A stretch of 64,000 nucleotides of DNA. Origin: Isoetes taiwanensis (lineage: Eukaryota > Streptophyta > Lycopodiopsida > Isoetales > Isoetaceae). Shown here one piece after another: positions 21,531 to 43,429 of the stretch. The stretch covers positions 462,332 to 526,331 of the forward strand of contig JAJEKV010000083.1 in the NCBI GenBank assembly GCA_021234155.1, given 5' to 3'. The position numbers were made by a program, and so were the translations under genes. Below the pieces are notes generated by a model. The model had not been told where the DNA came from. It made no database searches and was given only the letters and a program-made list of their open reading frames with translations. The stretch's first letter is position 1; the number at the start of each line of letters is the position of its first letter.

Positions 21531-22388
21531 TCATAAAGCATCTCTAGCAGCATTATCCCTACATTCCTTTAACTCTTCTTGGGCTTCCCTGATCCAAATT
21601 TCATCAAAAGCATCATTGTGAATAATACATAAGTTATGTAGAACTAAACACGCCGATACAACTAGCGGAACATGCTTCAAACGCATCTCCATTTTTTTCA
21701 ATAGTATACGAAAACGAGCTTTTAGTATATCAAATGCCCTCTCCACGGACATCCTGGTGCTAGACTGAATGAAATTCCAATGTTTCTGTATTGGGGTAAA
21801 TACTGGGCCTACATTAAAATGTGGTGTCAACAGCCAATTCCTAGCATTGTAACCTGCATCACCTAATATGCAGTAATTGCCCATTTGACCAGAGGTAAAT
21901 TTGGTGCAAGCAGATGTTCTTTCAAATAGAGCCCAATCGTGCATACTTCCTGCCCAACCAACATCGTAATCCCATATCAGACACCTGGAATCAACAATGA
22001 TTTGTAGAAGGATGGAGTGAAAGCCTTTCCTATTGTAATAATCAGGAGCATGCTCTATAGGAGCTGTTATGGGAATGTAACTGCCATCCACTGCCCCAAT
22101 CACATTGGGAATGCCATGCTTGGCCTCAAAGCCAGTTGCATATTTCTTACACGTACTCATGGAGGGCCAAATAAGACCACGATGCAGTTTTTCCTTCTTT
22201 ATTTTTATTGCCTAACAAAATTCTATAACACAAAGCTGTAGTGACGCCAACTCATATAATTCTGCTACCACGGGAAGTGTTGAACCACTTGCAAGGCGAG
22301 TCAATGCAATAGCCACTTTTTTTGGGACTTCCAAAGCCAATCTTAGGTGTGTGTTCTTCCTCACTAGCACTGGATGTAACACACTGCA
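21531..22388 (-). pseudogene. Harbinger-2 transposase, catalytic part, split by chromovirus
   Basis: Same family as the transposase at 16754 but clearly diverged. The catalytic Asp in GAVDGSYI, Asp in GDAGYN and Glu in SVERAFDILKARF are all present, with YYNRKGFHSILLQ and LHNLCII. Upstream in the same frame, the N-terminal part (KKVAIALTRLASGSTLPVVA) is separated from the core by a single TAG at 22212-22214. At 22388 the gene is cut by the 5' LTR. The missing N-terminal segment lies 13.3 kb away at 35674-35924. The gene was already, or has since become, inactive by both lesions. Confidence 0.85.
22384..22388. repeat. Target-site duplication CTGCA, left copy
   Basis: CTGCA directly before the TG of the 5' LTR; the same five bases follow the CA of the 3' LTR at 35674-35678. 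Five base pairs is the usual Ty3/gypsy duplication. Confidence 0.9.
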
Positions 22389-22531
22389 TGTGATGTTCGG
22401 GACGCGTATCTCACGGTCCCCGGGCGTATACCGCATCGTTGCCACGTCCGCATTACCGCCACTCCGACCGACGGTAATGCGTAACGTGTAGCCAGGTGGG
22501 TAGCCCCTAGGGGGCAACTTGCCAGAAATAT

Positions 22532-22691
22532 GTGCAACTATTAATGTGCACATTTTCCAATGTACACATTAATGTGGGCACACATTTCCATGTGGACACT
22601 TCATGCCAAGTGGGCCACACCCTTAGGTGCAATTAATGTGCACATTTTCCAATGTACACATTAATGTGGGCACACATTTCCATGTGGGCAC
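22532..22691 (+). repeat. U3 direct repeat, 95-bp spacing
   Basis: A segment of about 65 bases (from GTGCAA through ATTAATGTGCACATTTTCC to CATTTCCATGTGG) occurs at 22532-22599 and again at 22627-22691. Both copies contain the palindrome-rich core ATTAATGTGCACATT. Repeats of this kind in U3 often act as enhancers. All LTR copies in the window have them. Confidence 0.85.
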
Positions 22692-22786
22692 ATTTGGCCA
22701 CCTAGCCCTTAAAGGCAAGTGGGCCCATTTCCAATTATCCCACATGCCCAAAGGGGATAATTGGAAACCCTAACCAACCCCCTTGT

Positions 22787-22794
22787 CTATATAG
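22787..22794 (+). promoter_or_regulatory. LTR TATA box
   Basis: CTATATAG in CCTTGTCTATATAGGGTAGG, downstream of the U3 repeats and conserved in every LTR copy. This is the probable core promoter for the genomic RNA. Confidence 0.65.
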
Positions 22795-24061
22795 GGTAGG
22801 AAACCCTAACTTGCCCAATTTCGATTCTAGGGCTTTAGAACTCTGTTTTGGCTGCCTCAACAGCCAAAACCGCATCCTAGACTCTGCCTGGGAGAATTGC
22901 ATCCTTAGTTTCTCTTGATTCGAGCGTTTCAGCAGGATGGTCGAGCTCAGGTCAGGAGGAGCCTCTCAAGGATCAGGTATTTAGCCAATTAGATAGTCTA
23001 AACCCTATTTCAGTCATCGAATCAGTAGGTTTAGCCTCTTAGATTGCCCATAGCAGCTCTCTAGATCTCTAGATAGCAGATTCTAACTAAAGAACCTAAC
23101 TCTATGTTGTAGATTAGATCTAGTTCTTTAGTTCTCTGTGAAGTATATGGATGATGTATCTCTATGAACTCCTTGTATTGGGAAGGGGGGTAGAGACCTA
23201 AAGCTCTGTAGTTGATGCTCCTAGAGTAGCCTCTCTAGCACACTGTAGATTCGCCCGTGCACAAGAGCCATACACCGGATGTGGGTGAAGGGGCGGGCTG
23301 GCTAAGAAGGAGATTCATGTCCTGACTCTTGAACGATCCCTCTGGTGTGTAAAGCCTACCGGGGATCATTGTGACTAGGTCCAATGGCTTGTCACTGTGT
23401 GCGGGCAAGGCATGGGCTCGACACCCGTGAAGTGGTGTTCACTTTCTAGTGGGTTCAGTCGAATACGGGCAGTGGCCCTCTAGTCACCTTGAGTCAGCAT
23501 GTAGATCTCGGAGGGAGTGATCCCTACCTGCCCATCTAACCGGGAAGATGAGCCCGGGAACGGCCCTTTTGGCTATGCATCCGTGGGCTCTGGTCAGTCC
23601 CGACACTTTTCAGCCCACTCGCAAAGTGTGCACGGGAGAGGCGGATGGAGTGGACAACCCTATGCCATGTTCATATGCCGCCCAAATCCATTGCCATGAA
23701 TTACGTCCCAATGAACTCACGGAGACCCAAGCCGTCACCATCCCTTCGAAATCCGAGCCTTGGGTAGGATTCCCCTATGTGATGTCTTGATCTTTGTCGA
23801 TCAGATATAGGTGGAGGACCATCCTTCGAGATGGTCATATGATGTTGATGTATGTGCTACTGACATGTATGTTTACGCTTCAGCGGCTAGGTAGGCCCCG
23901 AGGGAGACGGGGTGCAATGACCCTTCCTCTTCCCCACGGCACCCGTCCACGCGGTTGCGATGTCATGTGAAGGGCCCCTCGTATTAGCATGGAGCTGGTA
24001 TGGGGATGAACTCGATTGTATACGGTGAGTGCACCGTGATATGAGTAGGGGGCGTCCGCGG

Positions 24062-24072
24062 TGGTATCGAGC
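24062..24072 (+). other. Primer-binding site, tRNA-iMet type (damaged)
   Basis: TGGTATCGAGC two bases after the LTR. Unit 2 has the intact TGGTATCAGAGC, complementary to the 3' end of initiator methionine tRNA, the common plant Ty3/gypsy primer. Confidence 0.8.
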
Positions 24073-24262: not shown

Positions 24263-24330
24263 GGTCTCACACTTGGCCAGGGACGAAAAGCGAGATTCTC
24301 GAAATGGGGGTGGGCTTAACGTGTGAACAT
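24263..24330. repeat. Hairpin repeat H1 (damaged copy)
   Basis: First of four related inverted repeats. Here the arms are degraded (GGTCTCACACTTGG and AACGTGTGAAC). The corresponding copy in unit 2 (37400-37466) is nearly perfect. Confidence 0.7.
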
Positions 24331-24452: not shown

Positions 24453-24519
24453 GTCTCACACGTCGCGCCAGGACCAAAAATGAGATTCTCAAAATCGGGC
24501 TGGGCGCAACATGTGAGAC
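24453..24519. repeat. Hairpin repeat H2
   Basis: 67 bases: left arm GTCTCACACGTCGCGCCAG, right arm CTGGGCGCAACATGTGAGAC, loop with GAGATTCTC. It lies 76 bases upstream of the cassette-1 TATA box. Confidence 0.85.
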
Positions 24520-24594: not shown

Positions 24595-24602
24595 TATAAA
24601 TA
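24595..24602 (+). promoter_or_regulatory. Internal TATA box, cassette 1 (H3-like)
   Basis: TATAAATA within GGCCCCTATAAATAGACC, about 100 bases before the first ATG of the H3-like gene. It is conserved in unit 2 and degraded in unit 3. The leader contains GGCGATCTTC at 24661, which also occurs in the leader of cassette 2. Confidence 0.65.
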
Positions 24603-24704: not shown

Positions 24705-26016
24705 ATGGCCCGCACCAAACAAACTGCAAGGAAGCCTAGCCGAAGCGGATCCTCCAGCGCCAGTGGCTCCGGCCTATTTCAAAGGGTCCTTCGAGAACGC
24801 CTTCTCCATGAAGGCGAATCTTCTTCGAGCGAGGAAGCGGGATCGGATCGGAGCGACCGTACAGAGCTCGTAGAGGACGACCGGCCGGACATCATGCACC
24901 AAATCCTCGAAGAGATCGCACAGGAGGAGGGAAGAAGCAAGGAGGAGCAGGAGCAGATAGGGGCGCCAAGAAACCAGGGAGCAGCCTGGGAGGACACCCG
25001 CCCCACAGAGGAGAAGCGGCAGAAGCGGACCAATCAACAGCCCAAGAGCAAACCCAGGTTGAGACCCACCTGCAAGAAGGGCAAGGAAGAGAAGAACAAA
25101 GAATAAAGACTCAAATTCAGCGGAGGAAGCCGACCTTGCACGCTTCATCAGCAAGTATGAAGCCAAAGAGCGCCGCCGGGAGCAGAGGACGAAGAGTCGG
25201 GAAGACGACCCGACCACAGTCAGCGGGTTGAAGAAGAGGAAGGCCAAAGCCATAAAGGCAGGCAAAAGGAAAGTGGTGAAGGTCGGGAAGCGAGCAGTAG
25301 GTCCCGTCATCAACGAGCCGTCAGGAGAGGAGACCCCGCCTACTACCGACGACTCGGATGAAGACTACGTGCCAGGCGCAGAGGGAGCAAGCTCTTCAAA
25401 ACCCCCGGTCGTAGAGGAAGAAACCCCGGCGGGTGCAGGCAGAAAGGGAGGAGGCGGGAGCGGTTAAGCCCCACCTTTCCCAACGTGGGATAGGGTTAAA
25501 GCCCCGCGACCCCAACGGGAGACGTATGTGATAGACCCTGTCAAGGTCTATCAGAAGAGAATTAGGGAGCACAACTCCTATATGGAGAAGTGGGAGGCAT
25601 ACAATGCCTACTTTCAGGAGCATCGGGTGAGGACAGTTGAAGGTGGAGTACCCCCGAAGCAGACCTTGAAGCCACCGCCACCCAGGCCCAAGCCTCTCCG
25701 AGCACCAGGTAAGAAGCGGAGCAAGAAGAAGAAGTTGGAGGACAGAGCCCTTAAGGAGATCCGCCACTTCCAGAAGAGTTACGGACTCTTGATCCCCCGG
25801 GCGCCGTTCCAACGCTTGGTTCGTGAAGTAATGCAAGAATACAACACGGACATGCGAGTAACCGACGAAATGTTGCTGTGCCTACAGGAGGCAGCAGAAG
25901 CAAAAATAGTGCAGCACTTCGAAGATTCAACGGCCTGCACGGTGCACGCGAAGAGGGTTACCCTCATGAGGCAGGATATGTATCTTGCCAGGCACATCAA
26001 GGGAGAACGCCCTTGA
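24705..26016 (+). CDS. Giant histone H3-like protein carried by the chromovirus
   Basis: Two ATGs occur in tandem (24702 and 24705). Starting at the second and removing Met gives ARTKQTARK, identical to H3 residues 1-9 including K4 and K9; position 10 is Pro instead of Ser. A long Ser-rich, acidic and Lys-rich insert follows, with a nuclear-localisation-like [20 protein letters not shown] and acidic [10 protein letters not shown]. The last 90 residues are an H3 fold: [11 protein letters not shown] (alpha-N), [24 protein letters not shown] (alpha-2), HAKRVT and a C-terminal IKGERP. By hand count 49 of 89 fold residues equal canonical H3. Loop 1 (EYNTDMRV) has no insertion, unlike CENH3. Total about 437 codons against 135 for H3. 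The frame is broken here by a shift near 25100 and a TAA at 25465; unit 2 is open at the first of these. Confidence 0.88.
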
Positions 26017-26159: not shown

Positions 26160-26226
26160 GTCTCACACGTCGCGCCAGGACCGAAAACGAGATTCTCAAA
26201 ATGGGTGCAGGCAACGCGTGTGAGAC
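26160..26226. repeat. Hairpin repeat H3
   Basis: 67 bases with arms GTCTCACACGTCGCGCCAG and GGCAACGCGTGTGAGAC. Unit 2 has the cleaner version (39296-39362), where GGACCGA and TCGGTC extend the stem inward. Confidence 0.85.
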
Positions 26227-26358
26227 CATGCCCAAAAATGCCCAAAACAGCTCCAAATCGACCAAATAAGGGGTCAATTCTGCCTAACTCGACGAGTTTA
26301 GTGGAATTACAGCCTTAGATCACTTAAATTGAGTAAGCCTAGCCCAATTGGGACCCAT

Positions 26359-26425
26359 GTCTCACACGTCGCGCCAGGACAGAAAACGAGATTCTCAAAA
26401 TCGGTCTGGGCGCAACGTGTGAGAC
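26359..26425. repeat. Hairpin repeat H4
   Basis: 67 bases with arms GTCTCACACGTCGCGCCAG and CTGGGCGCAACGTGTGAGAC. It is the second of the pair upstream of cassette 2; the two lie 199 bases apart, and H1 and H2 lie 190 apart. Confidence 0.85.
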
Positions 26426-26726: not shown

Positions 26727-28149
26727 ATGGCCATTAGCGACTTGGGCGATGGTGCAAATACAAATGCCCATGTCTTCTTAGAGGCGGATGTCAACGACAT
26801 CTTCCAACTCTTTGGGAAAGAAATTGACATCCAAGCTACGCTAAATGCAACCCCATCATATAGGCAAGTGCTAGCAGAGTTTCAGACTAGGGTAGGACCC
26901 TCCCTTGTTCAGTCCCCCTTGCATAGGATATTTCGTTCCCGGCCATCCTTCAAGCAACCTTGGGTGATGTTCCTAACATCGCCAAGTACTTAACCAACAA
27001 GGCGCCAGAGACTCGCCTGACTACATGGTCCTGACAGCCAATAGGACCACCGCCGCCCTAGCCATCTTCTTATCCCACCAATAAAACCCGATGGGGGCAA
27101 CCTCTATCCCTCCGATGGAGGTGAACCCCATAGCAAAGGTAAGAGGAAGAGCGGATGCTTTTGCAAGATCAACAGAACAAGAGGCAAGAGAAGGAGAAGA
27201 GGGCCGGACGACGAGGAATACACCTGAGCTCGACTCGCAGGCAAGAACGGGCGCCAAGGGCTAGGCATCAGAAAGCTGATCAACTTCGAAAGGAGCCGGG
27301 CACGCATATCCATCCGGAACCTTCCCCGCGGGGAGAGGGAGCTCGTGTTGGACGAATCGCTCCACCAACCGCGGCGGAACCGACGTGGACGACTTCATCG
27401 TCCGGGAGCCTCGGACTTTCCGCTTCAAGTCAGAGAAGCCGACACCTTACACTGTGGGACCTCCGATATCCGTGCCTACAAAGCAAAGATCGGGCAAATG
27501 ATGGACGGCGGAGCTGCCAACAGAGGAGGAGTTCCTCGCCCTCCAAGAACAGATGGGGATCCGTGGGAAGACCACGAGCATCCTAATGCCCAGGCCTTCG
27601 ACACCACCCCCGGCAAGAGGAGAAGGAATCGACCTCAGGAGGGTCGACCGCACAATTGAAGACTACCGGGAGCTCACCGAGATAGAGGTCGACGAGTACG
27701 CCGGGCGGCACAGAACAGGAGGCCAAGCAAGTGGAGAATCATCCGCGACGCACAAACGGAGTCGCCAGTACTACTTGCCGCTGCTGCTGGATGGGAGAAT
27801 AGCGGTAATACACCGCAAGTTCAGTCCCAGAGGAGAGGAAGGGGTGTTCATGCTGATTGCACTCTCGGGCTTCGGCAGGCATGCTCGCATAGCGGCAAAT
27901 GTTGACTATGCTGTCCTGGTCAAGAGGGCAATGGCACTCGACCTCTTTGACTTCGCCATACCCCATCGGCGTCGGCGAGATTGGTGGATCGCGCGGCCCT
28001 TACATCCGACGCGGGTAGAAGACTTGGTGAGAGCCTTACAGGGACGCTCGTCGGCAAGCATCATCAGGAACTTGGGTCACTCGGTAGGGACGGCCCAAGT
28101 TAAGAAGTTTCTTGAAGACAACCCGTCTTACCGGCGATTTCAAGACTAG
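26727..28149 (+). CDS. Unrecognised chromovirus protein (cassette 2)
   Basis: The ATG at 26727 starts MAISDLGDGANTNAHVFLEA. In this and overlapping frames it is followed by a helical region (DIFQLFGKEIDIQATLNATP; in unit 2 NIAKYLTNKAQRLPDYMV and AALAIFLSH), a highly acidic Glu/Asp stretch, a basic stretch, and a C-terminal part (27553-28149) with YYLPLLLDGRIAVIHRKFSP, LVKRAMALDLFDFAIP and VEDLVRALQG. I recognise no family. A faint resemblance of the IAKYL...AALAIFL segment to histone H2A is too weak to call. The frame is broken several times, and unit 1 lacks about 80 bp present in the other units near 27310. Its own TATA box, leader and 3' tail suggest separate expression. Confidence 0.55.
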
Positions 28150-28321: not shown

Positions 28322-29600
28322 GTGGATGCAGCTAGAGGCCTAAGCGCAGGGGAACGACAACTGCGAGACCTTATAGAAGAACGGACCCCGCCCAGACCAC
28401 CCCCGGCAAGGAACGTGTTTGAAGATATGGAACCCATGACCCCAGAGGAGGAGATATCCCAGATGAGGACGGACCTTGAGCAGATAAAGGCCTTGTCGTC
28501 CGCACTGCGTGAGCAGTTCGGTGGGCAATGCTCAATTGCCACAAGCATCGCTCCCGAAAACAGAAGGGACAAGAAGAGGAGCAAGAGAAGGAGATCCCCC
28601 AGCTCGGATTCCTCAGACTCAAGTTCGAACTGTCGGACTCGAGGAAGAAGAAGAGCAGGCCCAAGACCGAACAGAAGGAAGGCAAAGGAACACTGAAGAG
28701 GGAAGGCAGAGGAACACCCCAGAAGGACGACAAAGAGACACCAGGGCCTCTGACTACCAGAAGAAGGTAGATTCCGCACTGGGCAATGTATGGAAGGCCC
28801 TGAATCGAAACAGGCCTCGGGGAGAACAGTCGGATTGGAAGTAGAGGCATGGCTGGACGAAATGAGTGAGTACGGCAATGCTTATGGCATGAAGGATAAA
28901 GATAAAGGAAGAGTGGCAACAGCCAACTTGAAAGGAGCCGCACGGATTTGGTGGAAGGGTTATGCAAAGGCACATGGCTTAAGCAGGGATGCTTGTAAGT
29001 TCAGGAAGTTTGCTAAAGCCTTCAAGCACCATTACGTCCCAAGGGAACATAAGTCCAGCATGATGCAGCAGTTCTATAGGTTGCAGCAAGGCAACAAATC
29101 AGTCCAGAAATATACAGAAGAATTCATGAGGCTAAGACTGTATGTGCCAAAGTTGGGAGAGAAGCATGCAGTTGAAAGTTATATTGAGGGGCTGAATGAG
29201 GAGATCCGCAAGCTTGTGAGGGCAATAAACCCTAAGACAGTATCGGAAGCAGAGTCCAAGGCTATAAGCTTGCAGGGGTCGGGACCTCAGAATAGCGGCG
29301 CGAAGCGGCCCGTATTTCCGGGATAAAGGCAAGGCGACAGAAGCTATAGCCCTAGGGCAGCCGATCCGTGTCCAAATAGAGCCTCGCATGGTGGAAACCA
29401 GGGAAACAAATAGGAGAAGAAGCGGTGTCCTTCAAGGACAAGCGGGAGGGTCAAACTACCCAAAGCGGTCGCGATCCTTTTTGCGGCGATGCCCAAGGAA
29501 AAGAGACAGAGTGCATAGAAAAGCAGCTTTTGCTTCATGTGCTTCCAGCGAGGCCATAGGACGCCAAACCGCCCCACGTCATGAGTGCAGCTCTAGCGGA
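28322..29600 (+). CDS. gag: Gag polyprotein, unit 1 (broken)
   Basis: Forms the virus-like particle. An N-terminal coil (GERQLRDLIEERTPPRPP, EEEISQMRTDLEQIKAL) and an SR-like basic/serine linker are followed by a retrotransposon-gag domain (VEAWLDEMSEYGNA, GAARIWWKGYAKAHGL, FAKAFKHHYVPREHK, VQKYTEEFMRLRLYVPKLGE). A degraded zinc-knuckle region lies near 29500-29570. There is no ATG in the gag frame: the frame enters from a TAA at about 28289 and the first residues follow without a standard start, so a non-ATG start, splicing or frameshift is needed. A TGA at 28694 separates the two halves in the same frame. Confidence 0.8.
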
Positions 29601-29639: not shown

Positions 29640-31700
29640 CGAAGCCCGCGAACTACATTCGTGGTGAGTGCCATATCTTTGCCGCAATAGATACGAAGCA
29701 AGCGTAAAAGCCGATTATAAGGTAATTTCCACGGTAGGAAAGGCCAAGACCAAGTCCTTCATAGTCTTGATAGACTCGGTGAAGTAGCCATAACTTTGCA
29801 TCCCCGTAATGGTTCAAATGTTGAAGTTGAAACCATTGAAGTCAAAAGCCAAGGCCCGTCGCCTTAGCAAGTGGTGCGGTAAGGCGCATTGCGGCAAAGA
29901 GAATTAACCGACATCGACTTGCCGTGGATTAATATCCGGATGGGGCAGAAGTAATGGGCATTGGCAAGTATGACTTGATCATAGGAATGGAGTACCTTGG
30001 ACCAGCAAGGGCCATTATCGATTGTGGAAAGCGGAAGGTGACCTTCCCAACACCCGACGGCAAGATCATTGAGATAACAGGTAAGGAAGTTGTTCCCATC
30101 ATGCAGTGTATGTCTTCTAAACGGCTATTCAAGTGCATCAAGAGTGAGCAAGTGGCATACATCTTCAAGCTTGAGATTAGTGAGCCAGAATCGGAAGGAA
30201 GCAAAGAAGACAAAGTGCTCAGCAAGTTACCCAAGCAAATAGCTAAGCTGATCACGGAGTTCCATGATCTCTTTCCAGATGAGATCAAGCAGCTTCCTCC
30301 CTATAGGGGAATCGAGTGCGAAATAGCACTCGAACCGGGAACAAAGCCAACAAGCAAGGCTCCATATAGAATGACAACGCAGGAGTTGTCAGAGCTAAAG
30401 AAGCAGTTGCAGGAGCTGCTTGACCTAGGTTTCATTAGACCTAGTGTTTCGCCATTTGGAGCGCTCATTCTCTTTGTAAAGAAGAAGGATGGCAGTTTAA
30501 GGATGTGCATAGACTACAGGCAGTTGAACAAGCACACCATTAAGAACAAGTATGCGCTCCCCAGATCAGATGACTTGATGGATCAGCTACAAGGAGCAAG
30601 AATCTTCTCCAAAATCGACTTAAGGTCAGGGTATCATCAGATCAGGATAAAGGAAGAAGATATCCATAAGACTGCCTTCAGAACGCGGTATGGGCACTAT
30701 GAGTTCACGGTGCCCCCGCGACGTTCATGAGGCTCATGAACGATATCTTCAGGGAGTTCCTAGACACCTTTGTGATTGTTTTCTTTGATGACATTTTGGT
30801 GTATAGCAGATCCCTTGAAGAGCACGTACAACACTTGAGAAGAGTGCTGGAGAAGTTGAAGAGGCACCAGTTGTACGCCAAGTTGTCGAAGTGCCACTTC
30901 GCAACAGAGAAGGTGGAGTATCTAGGTCATGTGATCTCGATTAGAAGGCATCTCGACGGATCCTCGCAAAAGATTGAAGCCGCCATTCGGCCGGCTACCA
31001 AGAATGTGCATGAAGTCAGAAGTTTTCTACGGCCTTGTGGTACTACAGGAAGTTCGTGAAGAACTTTGCCAAGATAGCGGCCCCGTTAACAGACTTGACG
31101 AGGGCGGAGAAAGTAAAAGATTGGGCGGAGCATTGGCACAAGAAAGCCCAAGCAGGGTTTTAATTGTTGAAGGAAGCTTTAACAACCGCCCGGCCTTAAC
31201 CCCTATTGGGACCCGGGAAAGACAAGCTTGTAGCGGCGACACGAAGTAAGATAGCTACAAAGTGCGGTGCTTATGAAAAGAAGAGCGCGCGTGGTAGCGT
31301 ATGATTCCGGAAGATGAACGGCGCCGAAACACGCTACCACACGCATGATCAGAATTGCTTGCGTTTGTCGGGCATTAAGAATTTGGAGGCACTACCTTTT
31401 GGGAAGGAAGTTCCAAATTGGATACGCACCACCGTAGCCTCCAATATGTATTCACGCAACCACACCTCAACCTGAGGCAGAGAAGGTGGATGGAGTTCCT
31501 TGAAGAGTACGACTTTGATATAGTCTACAAGCCAGGGAAGCTCAATGTGGTAGCGGATGCGCTTTCAAGGCATCCCCTGACAACTAGAGTGCATTGCAAT
31601 GCAATTTCGACCCTCTCCAGCGACTTTGGTAAGAAGATTGAAGATTCCTTGCCAACGGATGTGGATTTCAGGGAAGTATGGGCAAGCCTCTCTAAGGAGG
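29640..31700 (+). CDS. pol: Pol: protease, reverse transcriptase, RNase H (broken)
   Basis: Copies the element RNA into DNA. The protease active site VLIDS is at about 29766-29778, with the following Gly lost. RT begins with [20 protein letters not shown] and continues through [20 protein letters not shown] and [20 protein letters not shown] to the catalytic FFDDILVYS at 30781-30807. Between FTV and ATFMR (about 30710) the conserved PFGLTNAP segment is missing, leaving a frame change. Unit 2 has the identical junction, so this loss predates the duplication. RNase H and its tail follow ([37 protein letters not shown]). Many small lesions lie at 29280-29950 and 31000-31460. Confidence 0.88.
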
Positions 31701-31789
31701 CTAGAACAGATAAGGAGCGGGAAGCCTTTAAACATTATAAGAAGGAAGGCAACCTGTTGTACCATAAGAATAAGTTGTGCGTACCCGAA

Positions 31790-33100
31790 TCATCAGGGGT
31801 AAGGAAATTGATCCTCCACAACACGCACAACAGCCCAATAGCTGGCCATGCGGGATTCATGAAAACATATTTCAAAGTGCGCAACAGCTATTATTGGCCA
31901 GGAATGAAGAAGCAGATAGCTCGCTACATCAAGGAATGCCACTATGTCGTGAGAAGGCGAAGCGAGCTTAAATTCCAGGAGCTTTAGAGCCATTAGCGGT
32001 GCCAAATGCTAAGTGGGAGGTGATTAGCATGGATTTCATCACAGGACTCCCAAGGACCGTAAGAGGGAAAGATGCTTTGATGGTAGTAGTCGACAAGTTG
32101 TCGAAAATGGCACATTTTATGCCTTGCAAGACCACGATATCACGACTATGGATACTGTGAAGCTCTTCACCAAAGAGATCTTCAGGCTTCATGGCATGCC
32201 AAGGGAGATTATCTCCGACAGGGATCCGAAGTTCATGAGCGCCTTTTGGCAAGACCTCTTTGCGACAATCCAGACGAAGCTATCCATGAGCACGGCATAT
32301 CATCCTTAGACGGATGGCCAAACGGAGCGGACCAACAGGATTTTGGAAGACATGCTACGAAACTATGTCTGGAATAAGCAAGGTATGTGGGAAGAATTTA
32401 TTCACTTGGTGGAGTTTGCCTATAATAGCACCAAGCAGGAATCATCCCAAATGTCGCCGTTTATGATCAATTACTGCTATCGCTTGCCTAACTCCGCACA
32501 ATTTGGCACAACCCCGTGTCCAAGGTGGAAGTTTCAGCGGCCAGATGTTGGCCGATATCGCGGCAAACTTGTGGAAGAAGTTCGAGGGTATCGCTAGCAG
32601 CAAGAAGTCGACAAAAGAGCATCACGACAAGCATCGAATCGGTAAGAGAGTTCAAAGTTGGAGATGATGTTTGGCTCAAGATCAAGGTGAAGCGGTGGCT
32701 CGGGATCGGAATTGCAAGAAGCTTGCTCCAAGGTGGGCTGGACCTTCCGAGAATAGTCAAGAGAGTAGGTAACCAATCCTACAAGCTAGACTTGCCAAAG
32801 ACACCTAAAGATTCATAAGGTCTTCCACGTGAGTTTGTTGAAGAAGCATACTCCAAATCCGGCGAAGTCTTGGACACTCCAACGATGTTGGAAATGATGG
32901 AGGAGCAAAATTGGAAATAGTTCCGAAATTGATTCTTGATAAAGCCTTCAAGAAAACGAGGAGATCGAATTCCTCCAAAGATTTGGTCAAGTGGAAACAC
33001 TTACCGCTGGAAGACGCGACGCGGGTACTTAAGAAAGATTTAGTAAAGCAAAGACCCCAGCTTTATGGAGCAATGGGGCGGCAAGGTCATCTCCAAGAAA
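31790..33100 (+). CDS. int: Integrase with C-terminal chromodomain (broken)
   Basis: Inserts the DNA copy, with the chromodomain steering target choice. The zinc-binding H-H part ([11 protein letters not shown]...[10 protein letters not shown]) is clear, but its CxxC is disrupted here; unit 2 keeps ECQLCRASK. Catalytic core: Asp in [11 protein letters not shown], Asp in ISDRDPKFM and Glu in TDGQTERTN. The usual HPQTDG reads HP-stop-TDG because of a TAG at 32307-32309, also found in unit 2 (46085) and apparently unit 3. A GPY/F-like module ([17 protein letters not shown]) and a chromodomain ([31 protein letters not shown]; about 32920-33060) follow. The chromodomain places the element among chromoviruses. 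Confidence 0.88.
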
Positions 33101-33222
33101 TCGGCTCAGGGCATGTCGATTCGTGTAGATTAATTCTATGTATAGTTAAGATTAATCTACGCATGCAACCTATGCTAGGTATGGGTCGCATGCGTTCTAC
33201 CATGATGGGACCACTACGGTGA

Positions 33223-33992: not shown

Positions 33993-34005
33993 AAGGTGGG
34001 GAGAA
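33993..34005 (+). other. Polypurine tract
   Basis: AAGGTGGGGAGAA directly before the 3' LTR. Primes plus-strand synthesis. One T interrupts the purines. Confidence 0.8.
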
Positions 34006-35673
34006 TGTGACGTTCGGGACGATAATGTCCCCGCGATCTATACCGCTTCGCTGCGTCACGCCGCATACCGCCACTCCGACCGGCGTGTGCGCTAACGCAG
34101 AGCCGGGTGGGTAGCCCCTAGGGGGCAACTTGCCAGAAATATGTGCAACTATTAATGTGCACATTTTCCAATGTACACATTAATGTGGGCACATATTTCC
34201 ATGTGGACACTTCATGCCAAGTGGGCCACACCCTTAGGTGCAATTAATGTGCACATTTTCCAATATACACATTAATGTGGGCACACATTTCCATGTGGGC
34301 ACATTTGGCCACCTAGCCCTTAAAGGCAAGTGGGCCCATTTCCAATTATCCCACATGCCCAAAGGGGATAATTGGAAACCCTAACCAACCCCCTTGTCTA
34401 TATAGGGTAGGAAACCCTAACTTGCCCAATTTCGATTCTAGGGCTTTAGAACTCTTTTTTTGCTGCCTCAGCCAAAACCGCATCCTAGACTTCTGCACCG
34501 GAGAATTGCATCCTTAGTTTCTCTTGATTCGAAGCGTTTGTTGGGATGGTCGAGCTCAGGTCAGGAGGAGCCTCTCAAGGATCAGGTATTTAGCCAATTA
34601 GATAGTCTAAACCCTATTTCAGTCATCGAATCAGTAGGTTTAGCCTCTTAGATTGCCCATAGCAGCTCTCTAGATCTCTAGATAGCAGATTCTAACTAAA
34701 GAACCTAACTCTATGTTATAGATTAGATCTAGTTCTTTAGTTCTCTGTGAAGTATATGGATGATGTATCTCTATGAACTCCTTGTATTGGGAAGGGGGGT
34801 AGAGACCTAAAGCTCTGTAGTTGATGCTCCTAGAGTAGCCTCTCTAGCACACTGTAGATTCGGCCTGTGCACAAGAGCCACACCGGGATGTGGGTGAAGG
34901 GGCCAGACTGGCTAAGAAGGAGATTCATGTCCTGACTCTTGAACGATCCCTCTGGTGTGTAAAGCCTACCGGGGATCATTGTGACTAGGTCCAATGGCTT
35001 GTCACTGCGTGCGGGCAAGGCATGGGCTCGACACCCGTGAAGTGGTGTTCACTTTCCAGTGGGTTCAGTCGAATACGGGCAGTGGCCCTCTAGTCACCTT
35101 GAGTCAGCATGTAGATCTCTGGAGGGAGTGATCCCTACCTGCCCCATCGGAAACTGGGAAGATGAGCCCAGGAACAGCCCTTTTGGCTATGCATCCGGCG
35201 GGCTACAGTCAGGTCCCGACACTTTTCAGCCCACTCTGCAAAGTGTGCACAGGAGGGGCGGATGGAGTGGACAACCCTATGCCATGTTCATATGCCAGCC
35301 AAATCCATTGCCATGAATTCTGTCCGCAATGAACTCTGGAGACCCAAGCCGTCAGTCATCCCTTCGAGTCTGAGCCTTGGGTAGGATTCCCTATGTGATG
35401 TGCTGATCTTTGTCGATGCAGATAGGTGGAGGACCATCCTTCGAGATGGTCATATGATGTTGATGTATGTGCTACTGACATGTATGTTTACGCTTCCGTA
35501 GCTAGGTAGGCGCTGAGGGAGATGGGGTGCAATGACCCCTTCACTCTTCCCACTGGCACCCGTCACGGTTGCAGTCTCATGTGAAGGGCCCTGTATTAGC
35601 ATGGAGCTGGTATGGGGGATGAACTCCTGTTTGTATACGGTGAGTGCACCGTATATGAGTAGGGGACGTCACA
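34006..35673 (+). repeat. 3' LTR, unit 1
   Basis: Starts TGTGACGTTCGGGACG and ends GGGGACGTCACA: TG...CA with an 8-base terminal inverted repeat. Very close to the 5' LTR; most differences are small indels at CAG/CTG/CCG or CG sites. Confidence 0.92.
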
Positions 35674-35678
35674 CTGCA
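35674..35678. repeat. Target-site duplication CTGCA, right copy
   Basis: Matches 22384-22388 exactly. Confidence 0.9.
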
Positions 35679-35924
35679 CAACCATTCAAAAGTTGCCCGT
35701 GAAACCCACATCTTCTGACAAAACATTCTATCCGTGTGACTATGTGACAAGATGTTTTCGTAGTATCCTTCTATGCGCTTGTACACCCAACAACTCCTTT
35801 GCTGCCTTGTCATGAAAGTCATCTTTTGTACCAACTCGAGCACTTGCACACATGCATACATGTATCTCTTGGATGGTGGCGCCTCGCTGGGCCTTAACAT
35901 CTCCAACATTATGAAGGACTGCAA
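35674..35924 (-). pseudogene. Harbinger-2 transposase, N-terminal part
   Basis: Minus-strand frame with RIEGYYENILSHSHTDRMFC, QKMWVSRATFEWLC, the region before the helix-turn-helix in this family. It lines up with the part missing from 21531-22388, so together they are one gene interrupted by the 13.3 kb retrotransposon. The frame begins near 35924. Copies of this segment recur after every LTR in the tandem array. Confidence 0.8.
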
Positions 35925-37024
35925 TATTTGGCATATTTGTAGAAGGTTGTGTCAAGTGCTTGGACCCATTGGGAAACAAAATCCTGAAGACAAATTAGAA
36001 CACAAGACGTGAGAATGGGCAACCGAGGAAATGATCTCAGCAGGCATGACTATGTAACAAGCTGGCCATGATACAACAGGCTGAAATAAGTCAAACTGAA
36101 GATAAAGATATGCATCTACCAAGTTAGATGCATCTTTTAGAAGCATCTTGACATTTGTTGATACAAACTTCCTTGTGTATCCTAGGTGGAGTGCATTAAA
36201 ATATAAATGGGGTCTTAATTAATTAAATAGCATAAATAGTAGTACAATGGTTTCAGTTAAAAAAAGAGCTTAAAAAGGTAACAATATGTTGAGAGCCAAG
36301 TTACCTTTTAAGAATAGTTATCCACCTTGAATGCAAGATGGACTCAAGTCTTTTGTCTTCGAACTGCACAAATCCTTGGGCTTCATGGAATCCTCCTGGT
36401 CCCCTGCAACATCCAGCAACTCAAATCATATCTTGTTCATGCAAACAAACAATATGGAAGAGATCCCAAAGACCCAAAAACATGGCTGTTAAGGCCACAT
36501 TTGCTTAGCCCTTGTTGAATAAAGAACTGTATGGTTTGACCTGTGTTACCAAAGGACTAGGAAAACAGTTTTCAGGATATAGAAGGAATACCTAACAGCT
36601 TTAAGTTATAACTCTCACCTGACAACTCAATGTTGTAAAATAAAACCTTAAGGCCAGCGACCAAGAAATGAATAACCCTGCTATCCTCATGTATAATCTA
36701 ACTAATACTTTTTATAGTATCCTTGGTTAGTAGAACAAGGTAGTGACTGGAAACAAGAGCAGAAACTTACTGCATAGGATACTGCAGCAATGTGAATCCA
36801 GTAAAACAAGAACCAAGAACCAAGAATTGGAATCTTATGATATAAATTACACAAAAGACTTGCAATTGTTCGTATAATGAATCTAATGCATGCTACTTTT
36901 AAAACATTCAGTTCTGCATATGCTGTCATAAGTCTGTACATATTTTTAGAAATAGAAGGCATCACTGACTCTTGTACAATACTTGGGCATTCAGAATAGA
37001 TGAAAAAGGATAAGGGTTTTACTG
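35925..37024. other. Harbinger-2 flank, non-coding
   Basis: AT-rich DNA upstream of the Harbinger-2 transposase. No second gene is recognised. It ends at the tandem-duplication junction at 37024/37025. Almost unchanged in unit 2 for about 650 bases (49690-50340). Confidence 0.55.
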
Positions 37025-37194
37025 AGGTAGGCCCTGAGGGAGACGGGGTGCAATGACCCCTTCACTCTTCCCACTGGCACCCGTCACGGTTGCAGTGTCA
37101 TGTGAAGGGCCCTGTATTAGCATGGAGCTGGTATGGGGGATGAACTCCTGATTGTATACGGTGAGTGCACCGTATATGAGTAGGGGACGTCACA
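37025..37194 (+). repeat. Truncated LTR stub, unit 2
   Basis: Last 170 bases of the LTR, ending GGGGACGTCACA. Lacks U3 and the LTR TATA box, so this unit has no LTR promoter of its own upstream. Confidence 0.88.
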
Positions 37195-37195
37195 G

Positions 37196-37207
37196 TGGTA
37201 TCAGAGC
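37196..37207 (+). other. Primer-binding site, unit 2 (intact)
   Basis: TGGTATCAGAGC, the standard plant tRNA-iMet complement. Confidence 0.9.
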
Positions 37208-37399
37208 TATGTTCTTGGAGACCAAGAGCAAAGCACTGGCCATGTTCCCAGTAGCACTAACTTGATAGGATCCTTAAACCTCGAAAAATGGGAAAAAAAA
37301 TTTCTCATTTTTGTAGTTATGCTAAGCTAGTAACAGTTAAAATGAATAAAAATGTAAAAAGATTAAAAATTGGTGAGCCAACATCCAAAAAGTAGGGTG

Positions 37400-37466
37400 G
37401 TCTCACACGTCGCGCCAGGACCGAAAACGAGATTCTCGAAATCGGGCTGGGCGCAACGTGTGAGAC
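37400..37466. repeat. Hairpin repeat H1, unit 2
   Basis: Arms GTCTCACACGTCGCGCCAG and CTGGGCGCAACGTGTGAGAC; the inner GGACCGA and ATCGGG extend the stem. Confidence 0.9.
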
Positions 37467-37586
37467 ATTCAGCTTTGACACCAAAAAGTTGTAAATTACA
37501 ATAAAATAACTTGGTAATTCTAATTTTAAACTAAGAATCAGTAGAATTAGCATGTTACATGTTAATTTAATAGTGGGTCCCACCAT

Positions 37587-37653
37587 GTCTCACACGTCGC
37601 GCCAGGACCAAAAATGAGATTCTCAAAATCGGGCTGGGCGCAACATGTGAGAC
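37587..37653. repeat. Hairpin repeat H2, unit 2
   Basis: Same structure and spacing to the TATA box as in unit 1. Confidence 0.9.
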
Positions 37654-37835
37654 CTTGCTTAATTAGGTGTTTTAGATGCTTTAAGTAACCCAAAAAGGTA
37701 ATTAAAAGTTGACCTAAAAAGTGGCCCCTATAAATAGACCTAGACCCCTCCCATTTTTCGTGTTCTTCCCTAGAACTTTGCTCGTGCTCGCCAAGGCGAT
37801 CTTCTGGCGCTTAGCTCCGATCGGCAAACCACCAA

Positions 37836-39152
37836 ATGATGGCCCGCACCAAACAAACTGCAAGGAAGCCTAGCCGAAGCGGATCCTCCAGCGCCAGTGG
37901 CTCCGGCCTATTTCAAAGGGTCCTTCGAGAACGCCTTCTCCATGAAGGCGACCTTCTTCGCGAGCAGGAAGCGGATCGGATCTGAGCGACCGCATGAGCT
38001 CGTAAGAGGACGACCCGGCGGACATCATGCACCAAATCCTCAAGAGATCGCACAGAGGGAGGGAAGAAGCAAGGAGGAGCAGGCGATATAGGGCGCCGTC
38101 GGCAAACCAGAGCAGCCTGTGAGGACACCCGCCCACGGGAGGAGCAAATGAGAGCAAAGGCGGGCCAATCAATGTACCCCAAGAGCAAAACCCGTGTTGA
38201 GACCCACCTGCAAGAAGGGCAAGGAAGAGAAGAACAGCAACAGCCAGCACTCAGCCCCGCAGAGGAAGCCGACCTTGCACGCTTCATCAGCAAGTATGAA
38301 GCCAAAGAGCGCCGCCGGGAGCAGAGGACGAAGAGTCGGGAAGACGACCCGACCACAGTCAGCGGGTTGAAGAAGAGGAAGGCCAAAGCCATAAAGGCAG
38401 GCAAAAGGAAAGTGGTGAAGGTCGGGAAGCGAGCAGTAGGTCCCGTCATCAACGAGCCGTCAGGAGAGGAGACCCCGCCTACTACCGACGACTCGGATGA
38501 AGACTACGTGCCAGGCGCAGAGGGAGCAAGCTCTTCAAAAACCCGGTCAGAGGAAGAAACCCCGAAAGCGTGGCACAGAACGAACGAGGAGGCGGGGGAT
38601 TGATGGCCCCACCTTTCCCAACGTGGGATAGGGTTAAAGCCCCGCGACCCCAACGGGAGACTTATGTGATAGACCCCTGCCAAGGTCTATCGAAGAGAAT
38701 TAGGAGCACAACTCCTATATGGAGAAGTGGGGAGGCATACAATGCCTACTTTCGTGAGCATCGGGTGAGGACAGGTTGAAGGTGGAGTACCCCGGCGGAC
38801 CTTGAAGCCACCGCCACCCGGCCCAAGCCTCTCCGAGAACCCACCGTAAGAAGCGAGCAAGAAGAAGAAGTTGAGGACGAGAGCCCTTAAGGAGATCCGC
38901 CACTTCCAGAAGAGTTACGGACTCTTGATCCCCCGGGCGCCGTTCCAACGCTTGGTTCGTGAAGTAATGCAAGAATACAACACGGACATGCGAGTAACCG
39001 ACGAAATGTTGCTGTGCCTACAGGAGGCAGCAGAAGCAAAAATAGTGCAGCACTTCGAAGATTCAACGGCCTGCACGGTGCACGCGAAGAGGGTTACCCT
39101 CATGAGGCAGGATATGTATCTTGCCAGGCACATCAAGGGAGAACGCCCTTGA
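37836..39152 (+). pseudogene. Histone H3-like gene, unit 2 (frames broken)
   Basis: Second copy of the H3-like gene, with the same ATGATG start and ARTKQTARK tail. The basic/acidic middle is open at 38148-38603, including the place where unit 1 shifts frame. Frame breaks lie instead near 37960-38150 and 38600-38880. The histone-fold part (38885-39149) is identical in DNA to unit 1 by eye, although the DNA on either side differs by many small indels. Comparing the two units shows that one long frame existed in the ancestor. Confidence 0.8.
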
Positions 39153-39295
39153 GATTTTGTAAATAACTGTAAAATTTTGTTAATATAAAGAATTTTTGTG
39201 TAAATAAAGTGTCAGACCTTGTTTAAATAAGTTAAGATATCGATCCCTAGCTTTTGTTTTAGTTAAATTGGAGCTTTGAGCAAAATTGAGACGAT

Positions 39296-39362
39296 GTCTC
39301 ACACGTCGCGCCAGGACCGAAAACGAGATTCTCAAAATCGGTCTGGGCGCAACGTGTGAGAC
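39296..39362. repeat. Hairpin repeat H3, unit 2
   Basis: The cleanest example. Outer arms GTCTCACACGT and ACGTGTGAGAC, then GCGCCAGGACCGA opposite TCGGTCTGGGCGC, with loop AAACGAGATTCTCAAAA. Confidence 0.9.
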
Positions 39363-39494
39363 CATGCCCAAAAATGCCCAAAACAGCTCCAAATCGACCA
39401 AATAAGGGGTCAATTCTGCCTAACTCGACGAGTTTAGTGAAATTACAGCCATAGATCACTTAAATTGAGTAAGCCTAGCCCAATTGGGACCCAT

Positions 39495-39565
39495 GTCTCA
39501 CACGCGTCGGCCAGACGTAAAACGAGATTCTCAAAAATCGGGATGCAGGCTAACGCGTGTGAGAC
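39495..39565. repeat. Hairpin repeat H4, unit 2 (slightly damaged)
   Basis: Outer arms GTCTCACACGCG and CGCGTGTGAGAC are intact; the inner stem has indels. Confidence 0.8.
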
Positions 39566-39866
39566 CTCATACCATTTCTTCACTAAATGATCTCCAAATT
39601 GTACCATAGGTTCAATAGTTGTTCTTAGCATGCTCAAACCCTAGAAATAGTCTTCAAACTTGCAATTGCATCCCTTAATAGATCAGAATTGCCTAATCTC
39701 AGTAAATTCTAGGTCATCCAAAAATTAGGGTTTTCCCCAATTCTATATATAAGTTCCCCCATTTCTCATTTAGCACCACACCAAATTTGTTTCCATCGCT
39801 TAGGCGATCTTCCGCATCCCCCGAGGCGCTTCATCCGTCTCTGTTACTCCCTTCTTTGCTAGATCA

Positions 39867-41935
39867 ATGGCCATCTTGACTTGAGGCGATGGTACAACGC
39901 CTGCCCATCTTTGCCGAGGCGGATGTCAACGACATCTTCCAACTCTTTGGGAAAGAAATTGACATCCAAGCTACGCTAAATGCAACCCCAGCATATAGGC
40001 AAGTGCTAGCAGAGTTTCAGACTAGGGTAGGACCCTCCCTTGTTCAGGTCCCCCCTTGCATAGGATATTTCGTTCCCCGGCCATCCCTTCAAGCAGCCTT
40101 GGGTGATGTTCCTAACATCGCCAAGTACTTAACCAACAAGGCGCAGAGACTGCCTGACTACATGGTCCTGACAGCCAATAGGACCAAGCATTAGGATTTT
40201 TTTGAGATTAAAAAAGGGCCTTCAAAACATGTCAACTAAGCCAAATGAAGATAAATGAACTACCAATCAGAAATCAGAGCCTGACGGGTCCAGTCAGCAA
40301 AACTGTTATAACTAACTCACTGGATCACATTTTTTAGCATAACTATTGATAGAAAAGTCCAAATGAGCTCTCGTTTAGTGCAATAGATAGATCTCGTTGA
40401 GATCTTTCCAACCTTAGGTGTTTTGCACATATTTTAACCACTTATGATTGTCAAAACTCCAAAAAATATGGTTTTTACAATTTTTTACTATCCTACGGGG
40501 CTAAAAGATATGCAAACCACCCAAGGTTGGAAAGGTCTCAATGAGATCTATCTATTGCACCAAACAAGAGCTCATTTGGACTTTTCTATCAACACTTATG
40601 CTAGAAAATGTGATCCAGTGAGTTAGTTATAACAACACTTTGGCCGACCGGATTACCAGCCTGCTTTCTCGATTGGTTCATACAAATTTTAGTCAGCAGT
40701 TCTTAGAAGGCCCTTTTATGATCTCAAAAAATCCCTAATGTTCTCTTACACCGCCGCCCTAGCCATCTTCTTATCCCACCGCGCCGAAAACCCGATGGGG
40801 GCAACCTCTATCCCTCCGATGGAGGTGGACCCCATAGCAGTGCAAGAGGAAGAGCAGATGCTTTTGCAGTATCAACAGGAACAAGAGGCAAGAGAAGGAG
40901 AAGAGGGGTCTGACGACGAGGGAATACATGAGCTCGACTTCAGACGAAGAACCAGCGCCAAGCGAAAGCAGGAGCTGATCAACTGAAACGGCGAGGGGCA
41001 TCGAAGTTGTTCCCCGCCGAGCCTGGGCATCACAAGCCTAGCCCCTATCATCATCAGCGAGGAGAGGAGTATCTACTCCTCAGCGACATCCGTAACAACT
41101 AGAATGCGGGGAGGGAGCTGAGTGTTGGACGAATCGCCTCCACCAATGCGGGCGGGAACCGACATGGATCGACTTTCATCGTCCTGGGGAGCCCCGGACT
41201 TTCGGGCTTCAAATCGAGAAGCGGCACCTGGCTACGTGGTGCGACCTCCGATATCCAGCCTACAAGACAGCATCGGGCAAATGATGGACGGCGGAGGCTA
41301 TACCCAGAGGAGTTCCTGCGCCTCCAAGAACAGATGGGGATCCGCAGGGGAAGACCACGAGCATCCCTAATGCCCGCTGTGCCTTCACACCACCCCCTAA
41401 GAAGGAGAAGGAATCGAACCTCAGGAGGGTCGCACCGCATTAAATTGAAGACTACCGAGCTCACCGAGATAGAGGTCGGCGGAGCACGCCAGGCGCAATG
41501 CATCGAGGAGGCCAAGCAAGTGGAGAATCATCCGCGACGGCAACCGACGTCGCCAGTACTACTTGCATTTCTTCTTTGGATGGGAGAATAAGCGGTAATA
41601 CACCGCAGTTCAGTCCCGGAGGAGAGGAAGGGGTGTTCATGCTGATTGCACTCTCGGCTTCGGCGCATGCTCGCATAGCGGCAAATGTTGACTATCTTTG
41701 TCCCGTCAAGAGGGGCAATGGCACTCGACCTCTTCGACTTCGCCATACCCCATCGACGTCAGCGAGATTGGCGATGGCGCGACCCTTACATCCGGCCATC
41801 GGGGTAGAAGACTTGGTGAGAGCCTTACAGGGCCTTCGTCGGGCAAGCATCATCGTGAACTTGGGTCACTTTCGGTAGGGACGGCCAAGTTAAGAAGTTT
41901 TGAAGACAACCCGCCTTACGGCATTTCAAGACTAG
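39867..41935 (+). pseudogene. Cassette-2 gene, unit 2, split by a MITE
   Basis: Same unknown protein as 26727-28149, with the same TATA box and leader upstream. A 552-bp foldback element interrupts it after TANR(T). On both sides the reading is recognisable: ADVNDIFQLFGKEI before, and AALAIFLSHRAENPMGATSI with an acidic EEGSDDEG tract after. This unit keeps about 80 bases (40995-41100) that are lost from unit 1. Dense indels in 41000-41900 break the C-terminal part. Confidence 0.65.
40189..40740. mobile_element. Foldback MITE inside cassette 2, unit 2
   Basis: Non-coding 552-bp element with matching ends (CATTAGGATTTTTTTGAGAT at the left, ATCTCAAAAAATCCCTAATG at the right). A long internal inverted repeat has a left arm near 40306-40420 (AACTCACTGGATCACAT, GATAGATCTCGTTGAGATC) and a right arm near 40521-40628 (AATGAGATCTATCTATTG, GATCCAGTGAGTTAGTTAT). 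Unit 1 has an uninterrupted site at about 27047; unit 3 has the element. I could not define a convincing target duplication. Confidence 0.8.
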
Positions 41936-42099
41936 TTAGACTCTTGGTCCCGGAGACTCTTTTTGTACTAAAATATTATATGATATATAAATACAATTCT
42001 GTTGCACTTTAAATGTTTTGTTGATGTATTTTGCCCCACAATTATACCAACAAACATAAACAATGCAAGAGAACAAAGGAAACTAACCATATAGCCATG

Positions 42100-43340
42100 A
42101 ATCACTTGTGGATGCAGCTAGAGGCCTAAGCGCAGGGGAACGACAACTGCGAGACCTTATAGAAGAACGGACCCCGCCCAGACCACCCCCGGCAAGGAAC
42201 CTGTTTGAAGATATGGAACCCATGACCCCAGAGGAGGAGATATCCCAGATGAGGACGGACCTTGAGCAGATAAAGGCCTTGCTGTCCTCACAAGCAGGAG
42301 CAGGTTCGGTGGGCAATGCTCAATTGCCACAAGCATCGGCTCGGAAAACAGGAAGGGACAAGAAGAGGAGCAAGAGAAGGAGATCCCCCAGCTCGGATTC
42401 CTCCGACTCAAGTTCAGACTCAGACTCCGACTCCGAGGAAGAAGAAGAGCAGGCCCAAGACCGAACAGAAGGAAGGCAAAGGAACACTGAAGAGGGAAGG
42501 CAGAGGAACACCCCGTAAAGGGCGACAAAGAGACACTGTGGCCTCGACTACCGTAAGAAGGTAGATTCCCGCCTTTGGGCAATGTATGGAAGGCCCTGAA
42601 TCGAACAGCTTCGGGGAGAACAGGTCGTCGATTGGAAGTAGAGGCATGGCTGGACGAAATGAGTGAGTACGGCAATGCTTATGGCATGAAGGATAAAGAT
42701 AAAGGAAGAGTGGCAACAGCCAACTTGAAAGGAGCCGCACGGATTTGGTGGAAGGGTTATGCAAAGGCACATGGCTTAAGCAGGGATGCTTGTAAGTTCA
42801 GGAAGTTTGCTAAAGCCTTCAAGCACCATTACGTCCCAAGGGAACATAAGTCCAAAGATGATGCAAGGCAGTTCTATAGGTTGCAAAGAAGGCAACAAAT
42901 CAGTCGAAATATACGAAGAATTCATGAGGCTAAGACCGTATGTGCCAAAGTTGGGAGAGAAGCATGCGCTTGAAAGTTATATTGAGGGGCTGAATGAGGA
43001 GATCCCAAGCTTGTGAGGGCAATAAACCCTAAGACAAATGATCGAAGCGAGTCCAAGGCTATAAAACTGCGGGGGTCTGACCTCGGGAATAAGCGAGCGG
43101 CGGCAGTTATTTCCAGGATAAAGGCAAGGCGCGCGGAAGCTATAGCCCTAGGGCAGCCATCCGAGGTCCTAGAGCCTCTATGGTGGAAACCAGGGAAACA
43201 AGGGGAGAAGAAGCGGGTGTCCTTCAAGGACAAGCGGAGGGGTCAAACTACTCCAAAGCGGTGCGATCCTTTTTGCGGCGTGCCCAAGGAAAGAGACGAG
43301 GTGCATAAAAGCGGCTTTTGCTTGGTGCTTCGGCCGCCAT
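42100..43340 (+). pseudogene. gag: Gag, unit 2
   Basis: Same layout as unit 1. The N-terminal part is open further (42108-42518) and shows a Ser/Asp run ending in EEEEEQAQDRTEGRQRN. The gag domain is at 42640-42973, then frameshifted. The zinc-knuckle region is damaged near 43300. Confidence 0.8.
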
Positions 43341-43429
43341 AGGACAGCAAAACCGCCCCTACGCCATGAGTGCAGCTCTAGCGGAGTTGGGGAGATTGGG
43401 GCCGCCTGTCCCCGACGGCAGCGGCGAAA

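Follow-up and report, generated by a model that had tools for sequence, protein, structure and literature searches.

A Histone H3-like Gene Inside a Chromodomain-bearing Ty3-type LTR Retrotransposon Family of Isoetes taiwanensis

Core histones are among the best-guarded proteins of a host, and it is through marks on the H3 tail that transposons become silenced. An H3-like gene found inside a retrotransposon of Isoetes taiwanensis, an aquatic quillwort and thus a lycophyte, raises the question of whether the element carries this gene as its own, and what a transposon could do with an H3 variant. The window analyzed here is the whole stretch of 64,000 nucleotides in which the gene was recognized, and coordinates refer to it unless a locus elsewhere in the genome is named.

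The H3-like gene and the element that carries it

The gene for the H3-like protein is located at 24705..26016 (+), the coordinates given in the original prediction. As was also predicted, the sequence directly after Met is ARTKQTARK, identical to H3 residues 1-9 (24708..24734, +), with P in place of S10, and the gene ends with an H3 histone fold with the C-terminal GERP (25747..26013, +). The search against histone families that had been proposed as a check supports the fold: it matches Pfam PF00125 Histone with 96.4 bits (E 1.8e-27, cut-off 26.4), and its best match among solved structures is H3.3 (E 4.4e-29). The fold is identical to canonical H3 at 50/88 positions, so that the earlier hand count of 49/89 was about right, and to the host's own H3 at 52/89. 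Among the columns invariant in 40 other H3s, 29/33 are kept in the window protein, as are 18/37 of the nearly invariant H3 columns. A CENH3-type loop-1 insertion is absent, in line with the prediction, in a direct comparison with provisional CENH3 folds.

The layout of the protein differs from that of a typical H3, in which the tail is joined directly to the fold within about 135 residues. Here a P comes after ARTKQTARK, and roughly 340 further residues lead on to the fold. The order of tail, linker and fold had been recognized correctly, with about 300 residues put between tail and fold; the size of the whole protein is corrected to about 400-470 aa. The predicted gene is present, but the window copy is disrupted, by a single frameshift near 25103 and a single in-frame stop at 25465-25467. 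Its two halves are in different frames, 24705-25103 (+) corresponding to the tail part and 25528-26016 (+) ending in the H3 fold. The AlphaFold model of the fold half is poor (mean pLDDT 59), with the helices in the order of a histone. It includes a predicted helix in the linker, at residues 4-37 of the window half, with pLDDT 81-86 over residues 1-30.

The gene is sited between the primer-binding site (PBS) and gag of an LTR retrotransposon, as proposed. The 5' LTR (22389..24060, +) is 92.9% identical to 34005-35670, with ends taken from alignments, and the 3' LTR (34006..35673, +) is preceded by the purine tract GGTGGGGAGAA. The LTR start is TGTGA, and the 3' LTR ends with CACA. The target-site duplication (TSD) CTGCA is found at 22384..22388 and again after the 3' LTR at about 35674. 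The PBS TGGTATCGAGC (24062..24072, +) follows the left LTR; it is TGGTATCAGAGC in the second copy in the window and at the locus L084, a sequence which we take to be of the tRNA-iMet type. The gag capsid region (28790..29326, +) was recognized with Retrotrans_gag (67.8 bits) and Ty3_capsid (61.7 bits), the reverse transcriptase (RT), in two frames (29954..31056, +), with RVT_1 (49.3 and 67.5 bits), and the integrase and chromodomain region, with broken frames (31418..33222, +), with Integrase_H2C2 (61.6 bits). The order of the element is thus LTR, PBS, H3 gene, gene 2, gag, RT, integrase and LTR.

In this broken copy, rve and SH3_Tf2-1 are below the cut-off and Chromo is unscored. A sister copy at L062 has an open gag-pol of 1266 aa with Retrotrans_gag, RVP_2, RVT_1, RT_RNaseH and Integrase_H2C2, and the same element continues at L064, where rve and SH3_Tf2-1 pass and PF00385 Chromo, with a cut-off of 25.1, reaches 40.6 bits. 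The LTR pair, 5-bp TSD, PBS, purine tract, domain order and chromodomain are those of a chromovirus-type Ty3 (Metaviridae) element, as the original prediction had it. Terminal inverted repeats and a hAT transposase would characterize hAT; this element has LTRs, a TSD, gag and pol instead. The chromodomain appears to lack aromatic cage positions 1 and 3 in a by-eye alignment with the HP1 pattern, which suggests the group II type.

A DDE_Tnp_4 (Harbinger-like) transposase gene at 21531-22160 (-) is apparently split by the LTR element, and 35577-35924 (-), which was recognized by eye and is without a Pfam match, is likely the N-terminal part of that transposase.

Two 67-bp near-palindromic promoter modules precede the H3 gene (24264-24326 and 24453-24519, +), and a second near-palindromic pair precedes gene 2 (26160..26425, +). 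The 67-bp module is identical to its own reverse complement at 50/67 positions, compared with a mean of 16.6 and a maximum of 32 among 1000 shuffles. A TATA box (tataaata; 24595..24602, +) lies about 110 bp upstream of the ATG of the H3 gene. Twelve stretches of 9.9 kb around intact copies, the long copies below, were scanned for colinearity, and all four modules, two before each gene, are found in 12/12; TATAAATA, about 110 bp upstream of the H3 start codon, likewise occurs in 12/12. The starts of the gene-2 modules are 192-200 bp apart in 12/12. Those of the H3 modules are 187-204 bp apart in 10/12; the distance is 170 in L055, where the match is partial, and 541 in L061. A spacing of 187-204 bp is near one nucleosome repeat. 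Because the modules and TATAAATA are conserved in 12/12 long copies, the H3 gene looks like a separate transcription unit with its own putative promoter.

Gene 2 (26727..28149, +) is broken in the window and encodes 507-508 aa in intact copies, such as that at L062:3968-5488 (-). The L062 protein has no match in Pfam, NCBIfam or PDB sequences at E 1. Gene 2 is a conserved gene of about 507 aa with the same type of promoter as the H3 gene and a homologue in the second lineage described below.

The window includes two further repeats of the 13-kb unit (37025-50688 and 50917-63902, +), with H3-like gene copies at 37839-39149 and about 51600-52760. When units 1 and 2 are compared, segments at 100% identity alternate with others mostly at 85-97%, and 235 of the 267 gap events involve 1-2 bases. 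Unit 3 is about 80% identical and ends beside a 10-N gap at 63937-63946. The Isoetes genome paper describes a Nanopore assembly with LR_Gapcloser gap filling and pilon polishing, which would explain such noise, and the tandem units are probably unpolished assembly. They are joined through flanking target DNA (35677-37024), and together with the noise and the 10-N gap this makes a gap-filling artefact likely. As independent evidence for the gene, the two further copies were rejected for their noisy identity pattern, short indels and N gap.

A dispersed family in two lineages

The genome search covered 1,658,258,908 bases in 1110 contigs, the window contig being C1093. With the fold half as a query, 150 matches were scored from 10,994 first-look candidates, the window's own included. 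All have E 6.9e-89 or better, are 83-99% identical and are distributed on many contigs; by hand count, 137 are without an internal stop and 53 are in stop-free open frames of at least 400 aa. A linker query (residues 13-276 of a sister copy), which lies outside the fold and nearly all of the tail, scored 145/7022 candidates with at least 231 matches. The H3-like genes thus constitute a large dispersed family in the genome of Isoetes taiwanensis.

Fifty loci were read: the 10 top-ranking matches, plus 40 selected mostly because their open frames are long. A single ORF of 398-467 aa runs from MARTKQ to the fold in 32/50 of them. The fold motif, defined by our own pattern and surveyed in any frame, is missing in 3/50. 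Among the 47 read copies with the fold motif, the tail is exact in 38, has one change in 2 and is absent in 7. In the 32 intact copies, which were picked for MARTKQ, the tail is unchanged except for one A7T, and S10 is replaced by P in 32/32.

LTR, H3 gene, gene 2, gag and RT are colinear in 8/12 long copies (L051, L053, L054, L057-L060 and L062), where all copies were found through the H3-like gene and the counts cover gene-bearing copies alone. L055 has all colinear parts except an LTR within range. In L052 the RT match is of 33 bases only, and the second LTR begins at 9515; its LTR pair is 94.1% identical over 409 bases. L056 and L061 are without a gag or RT match, and an ORF of L061 resembles the gag N-terminus by eye. 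Absence of the gene from every other member of the family had been named as the outcome that would make it a single chance capture. Its recurrence at 150 places and the eight colinear copies exclude this.

The NG86 dN/dS was calculated for 496 pairs from the 32 intact ORFs, with a mean dS of about 0.7, and is 0.171 for the whole H3-like gene. It is 0.225 for linker residues 13-276, which lie outside the fold-half search query. The values of 0.129 for linker residues 277-350 and 0.040 for the fold are biased, as ranking by fold-half similarity lowers dN in both, and the value of 0.031 for the tail includes six first codons in which the MARTKQ requirement lowers dN. In tail codons 7-11, which were not selected on, 34/35 departures from the commonest codon are synonymous, counted as copies and not as independent events. 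The dN/dS of gene 2, also outside the search query, is 0.115 (6 copies, 15 pairs), and that of RT is 0.116 (3 copies). The H3-like gene is kept under purifying selection.

A canonical H3 query revealed 15 near-identical host genes (96-98%; 12 were read) and 135 further matches at 71-86%. Among these further matches, a second lineage, itself a large family (lineage 2, with the family above as lineage 1), was recognized from the loci L079 and L080, both of which were read. Its proteins, of about 410 aa, lack the ARTKQTARK start and have instead an unrelated N-terminal part of about 300 aa, which leads into an H3 fold identical to host H3 at 76/89 positions (L079, Pfam Histone 141.2 bits). The lineage-2 N-terminal query scored 136/5217 candidates, 76 of them (hand count) in stop-free frames of at least 400 aa. 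The loci L079, L080, L082 and L084 are on contigs C1044 and C1061.

At L079 the gene follows a piece of LTR, with matches of 79-158 bases that are 83-86% identical to the window LTR, and the PBS TGGTATCAGAGC. A gene-2 homologue with one in-frame stop comes after the H3-fold gene (blastp 6e-11 and 8e-5; profile score 30.4 bits, compared with the best of 2.3 in 200 shuffles). This order indicates that two deeply diverged lineages share the arrangement of PBS, H3 gene and gene 2. The window gag and RT queries gave no match within 7 kb downstream of the L079 copy. Two 74-bp repeats, which agree at 74% and start at a distance of 108 bp from each other, were observed before the H3 gene at a lineage-2 locus.

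A search of the annotated proteins of other species with only the linker, in a query that began 4 residues before the start codon, scored 7999 candidates and gave no hit. The best 120 of 6217 candidates for the fold are named H3s, H3 fusions, CENH3/CSE4-like proteins and some unnamed proteins. The best 120 of 2284 for the read-through query are of the same kinds, and none of those listed covers more than 38% of the query. Four of these annotated relatives were read as sequence.

Possible roles and origin of the H3-like protein

The residues C110, H113, A114, R116, D123, L126, A127 and I130, which we take to be the H3-H3 interface, all match host H3, with one change among the 32 intact copies (A127V in 1 copy). 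Of the presumable DNA contacts, 6/9 are kept (R69, R72, R83, K115, R116 and T118) and three differ (R49K, R63P and K64R). Further changes are K79N, K122Q, and S87E and V89L at positions assumed to contact chaperones. At position 56, 20 of the 32 intact copies have K and the other 12 have R. With changed DNA-contact and chaperone positions and 18/37 nearly invariant columns kept, nucleosome assembly could be weakened.

Our preferred reading, held with moderate confidence, is that a chromodomain-bearing Ty3-type LTR clade in Isoetes took up an H3-family gene between the PBS and gag, and that its product most likely joins host nucleosomes and there alters silencing or docks proteins. The product would be an H3 variant of about 400-470 aa, encoded in one uninterrupted frame, in which a charged linker of roughly 340 residues joins residues 1-9 of H3 to a histone fold with the H3-H3 pairing residues and part of the DNA contacts retained. 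Such a variant would pair with host H4 and enter nucleosomes on the element's DNA or at its target sites. The tethered tail would offer K4 and K9 without S10, K14, K27 and K36, so that silencing could be altered or element proteins docked, to the presumed benefit of the element. With its own H3 variant, the element may have the means to assemble its own chromatin or to put marks on it. An H3 gene carried, under selection and with putative promoters of the element's own, long enough for two deeply diverged lineages to form would be a direct case of parasite-supplied chromatin.

The tail is present in 40/47 read copies with the fold motif, and its variation is synonymous. This is also consistent with a soluble histone mimic, in which ARTKQTARK would soak up writers, erasers and readers of K4 and K9 and the fold would mainly serve stability or dimerization. 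The long linker agrees with such a decoy, and P at position 10 in 32/32 intact copies would remove the phospho-switch beside K9. However, the dN/dS of 0.04 in the fold, biased low as it is, is below the 0.225 of the linker, a constraint that a decoy does not need. In both lineage-2 proteins read, the fold is nearer to that of host H3 (76/89) and such a tail is absent, which indicates that not every member of the clade needs it. A decoy is accordingly regarded as rather unlikely, while still the foremost alternative to the nucleosomal variant.

A more elaborate form of the nucleosomal reading, somewhat less probable than the decoy, is a private address system. The element's own H3 variant would be loaded with H4, and the integrase chromodomain would read this variant rather than host H3K9 methylation, so that the mark would be both written and read by the element. 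Gene 2 would act as a loader or partner, and the palindromes would be control or loading sites.

The lysine-rich stretches of the linker and the kept contacts R69, R72, R83, K115, R116 and T118 would also suit a protein that binds the cDNA of the element, or joins H4 in the pre-integration complex, and protects or imports it. The location of the gene within the element and its own putative promoter are compatible with such a packaging or nuclear factor. Against it, the gene is separate and not part of gag; a histone fold is a poor DNA binder by itself, without partners. This role is considered doubtful, more so than an address system.

The origin of the fold was approached with two small trees of 89 columns with long branches and provisional CENH3 sequences. 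They place lineage 1 with three plant CENH3 folds (support 93/90 and 97/93), apart from canonical H3 and lineage 2, and a single clade of lineages 1 and 2 is weakly rejected (p-AU 0.033; 89 columns). If the lineage-1 fold was captured from CENH3, it could steer the element to centromeric chromatin or imitate it. Several observations are at odds with this: human CENP-A is on the canonical side in the 93/90 tree, the loop-1 insertion is absent, the GER end and the ARTKQTARK tail are canonical, and the copies are spread over many contigs. In the fold, Y54F and A135P are the only departures from host H3 that the two lineages have in common. Gene 2, common to both lineages, favours one capture. A search of the host genome with a CENH3 query gave canonical H3 and other H3-fold copies, none recognized as CENH3. 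Given the provisional CENH3 sequences and the long branches, the origin may be a CENH3 source, two captures, or a single capture after which the lineages diverged fast; centromere-type capture as an account of the gene's role is improbable, slightly more so than packaging.

A functionless passenger H3 fragment or an assembly chimera, which the broken window copy, its noisy repeats and the fate of most hAT-captured H3 copies in fungi, described as dead in PMC6710886, might suggest, is very improbable and was rejected, being already contradicted by the size of the family, its open frames, the low dN/dS, the promoter modules shared by 12/12 long copies and the two lineages.

Relation to known systems

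Among the matches listed in a literature search on histones in retrotransposons, chromoviruses, mimicry and viral histones, no title or opening of an abstract presents an LTR retrotransposon with a histone gene, and the word "histone" is absent from the main text of the Isoetes genome paper. The closest parallels among the matches listed are fungal hAT DNA transposons carrying H3 (H3L) in Pyrenophora tritici-repentis and Pseudocercospora fijiensis (PMC3538342, PMC6710886). There too, a mobile element carries and amplifies an H3 coding sequence, for which ESTs are reported in Pyrenophora. In contrast, hAT-H3L are DNA transposons with terminal inverted repeats, and the P. fijiensis copies are described as RIP-inactivated except for the original. 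The Isoetes element is an LTR retrotransposon in which tail and fold are about 340 residues apart, with purifying selection, a putative promoter of its own and a companion gene.

Single histones in viruses include the bracovirus H4 (CvBV/CpBV-H4) and singlet H3s such as xenomavirus H3 (PMC9145170). These are likewise parasite-borne core histones, and the bracovirus H4, with an extended tail, joins host nucleosomes (PMC9145170). They differ from the present case in that they belong to DNA viruses or polydnaviriforms and are H4 or near-canonical H3. The main text of this review contains neither "retrotransposon" nor "retrovirus".

Extra ORFs are known from plant Ty3 elements, such as aORFs, Grande gene23 and the Phalaenopsis 2-ODD (PMC7264820, PMC9289625). 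The H3-like gene resembles aORFs as an extra gene in the internal region, and for Grande gene23 a reference title indicates a separate promoter and a product located in the nucleus. Across 121 angiosperm genomes, 15 extra domains are reported for LTR elements in PMC9289625; its section on them names nine, with no histone among these, and the main text of PMC7264820 does not contain the word "histone".

Plant chromoviruses with group I/II chromodomains are described in PMC6317226 and PMC2864245, whose passages on them, unlike the present element, mention no H3 gene. The partner of the type II chromodomain is stated to be unidentified (PMC6317226). An element-encoded H3 variant makes it testable what group II chromodomains bind, and how elements escape or steer H3K9-based silencing. 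The Isoetes element shares with these plant chromoviruses the gag-PR-RT-RNaseH-INT order and the C-terminal chromodomain (PMC6317226, PMC2864245).
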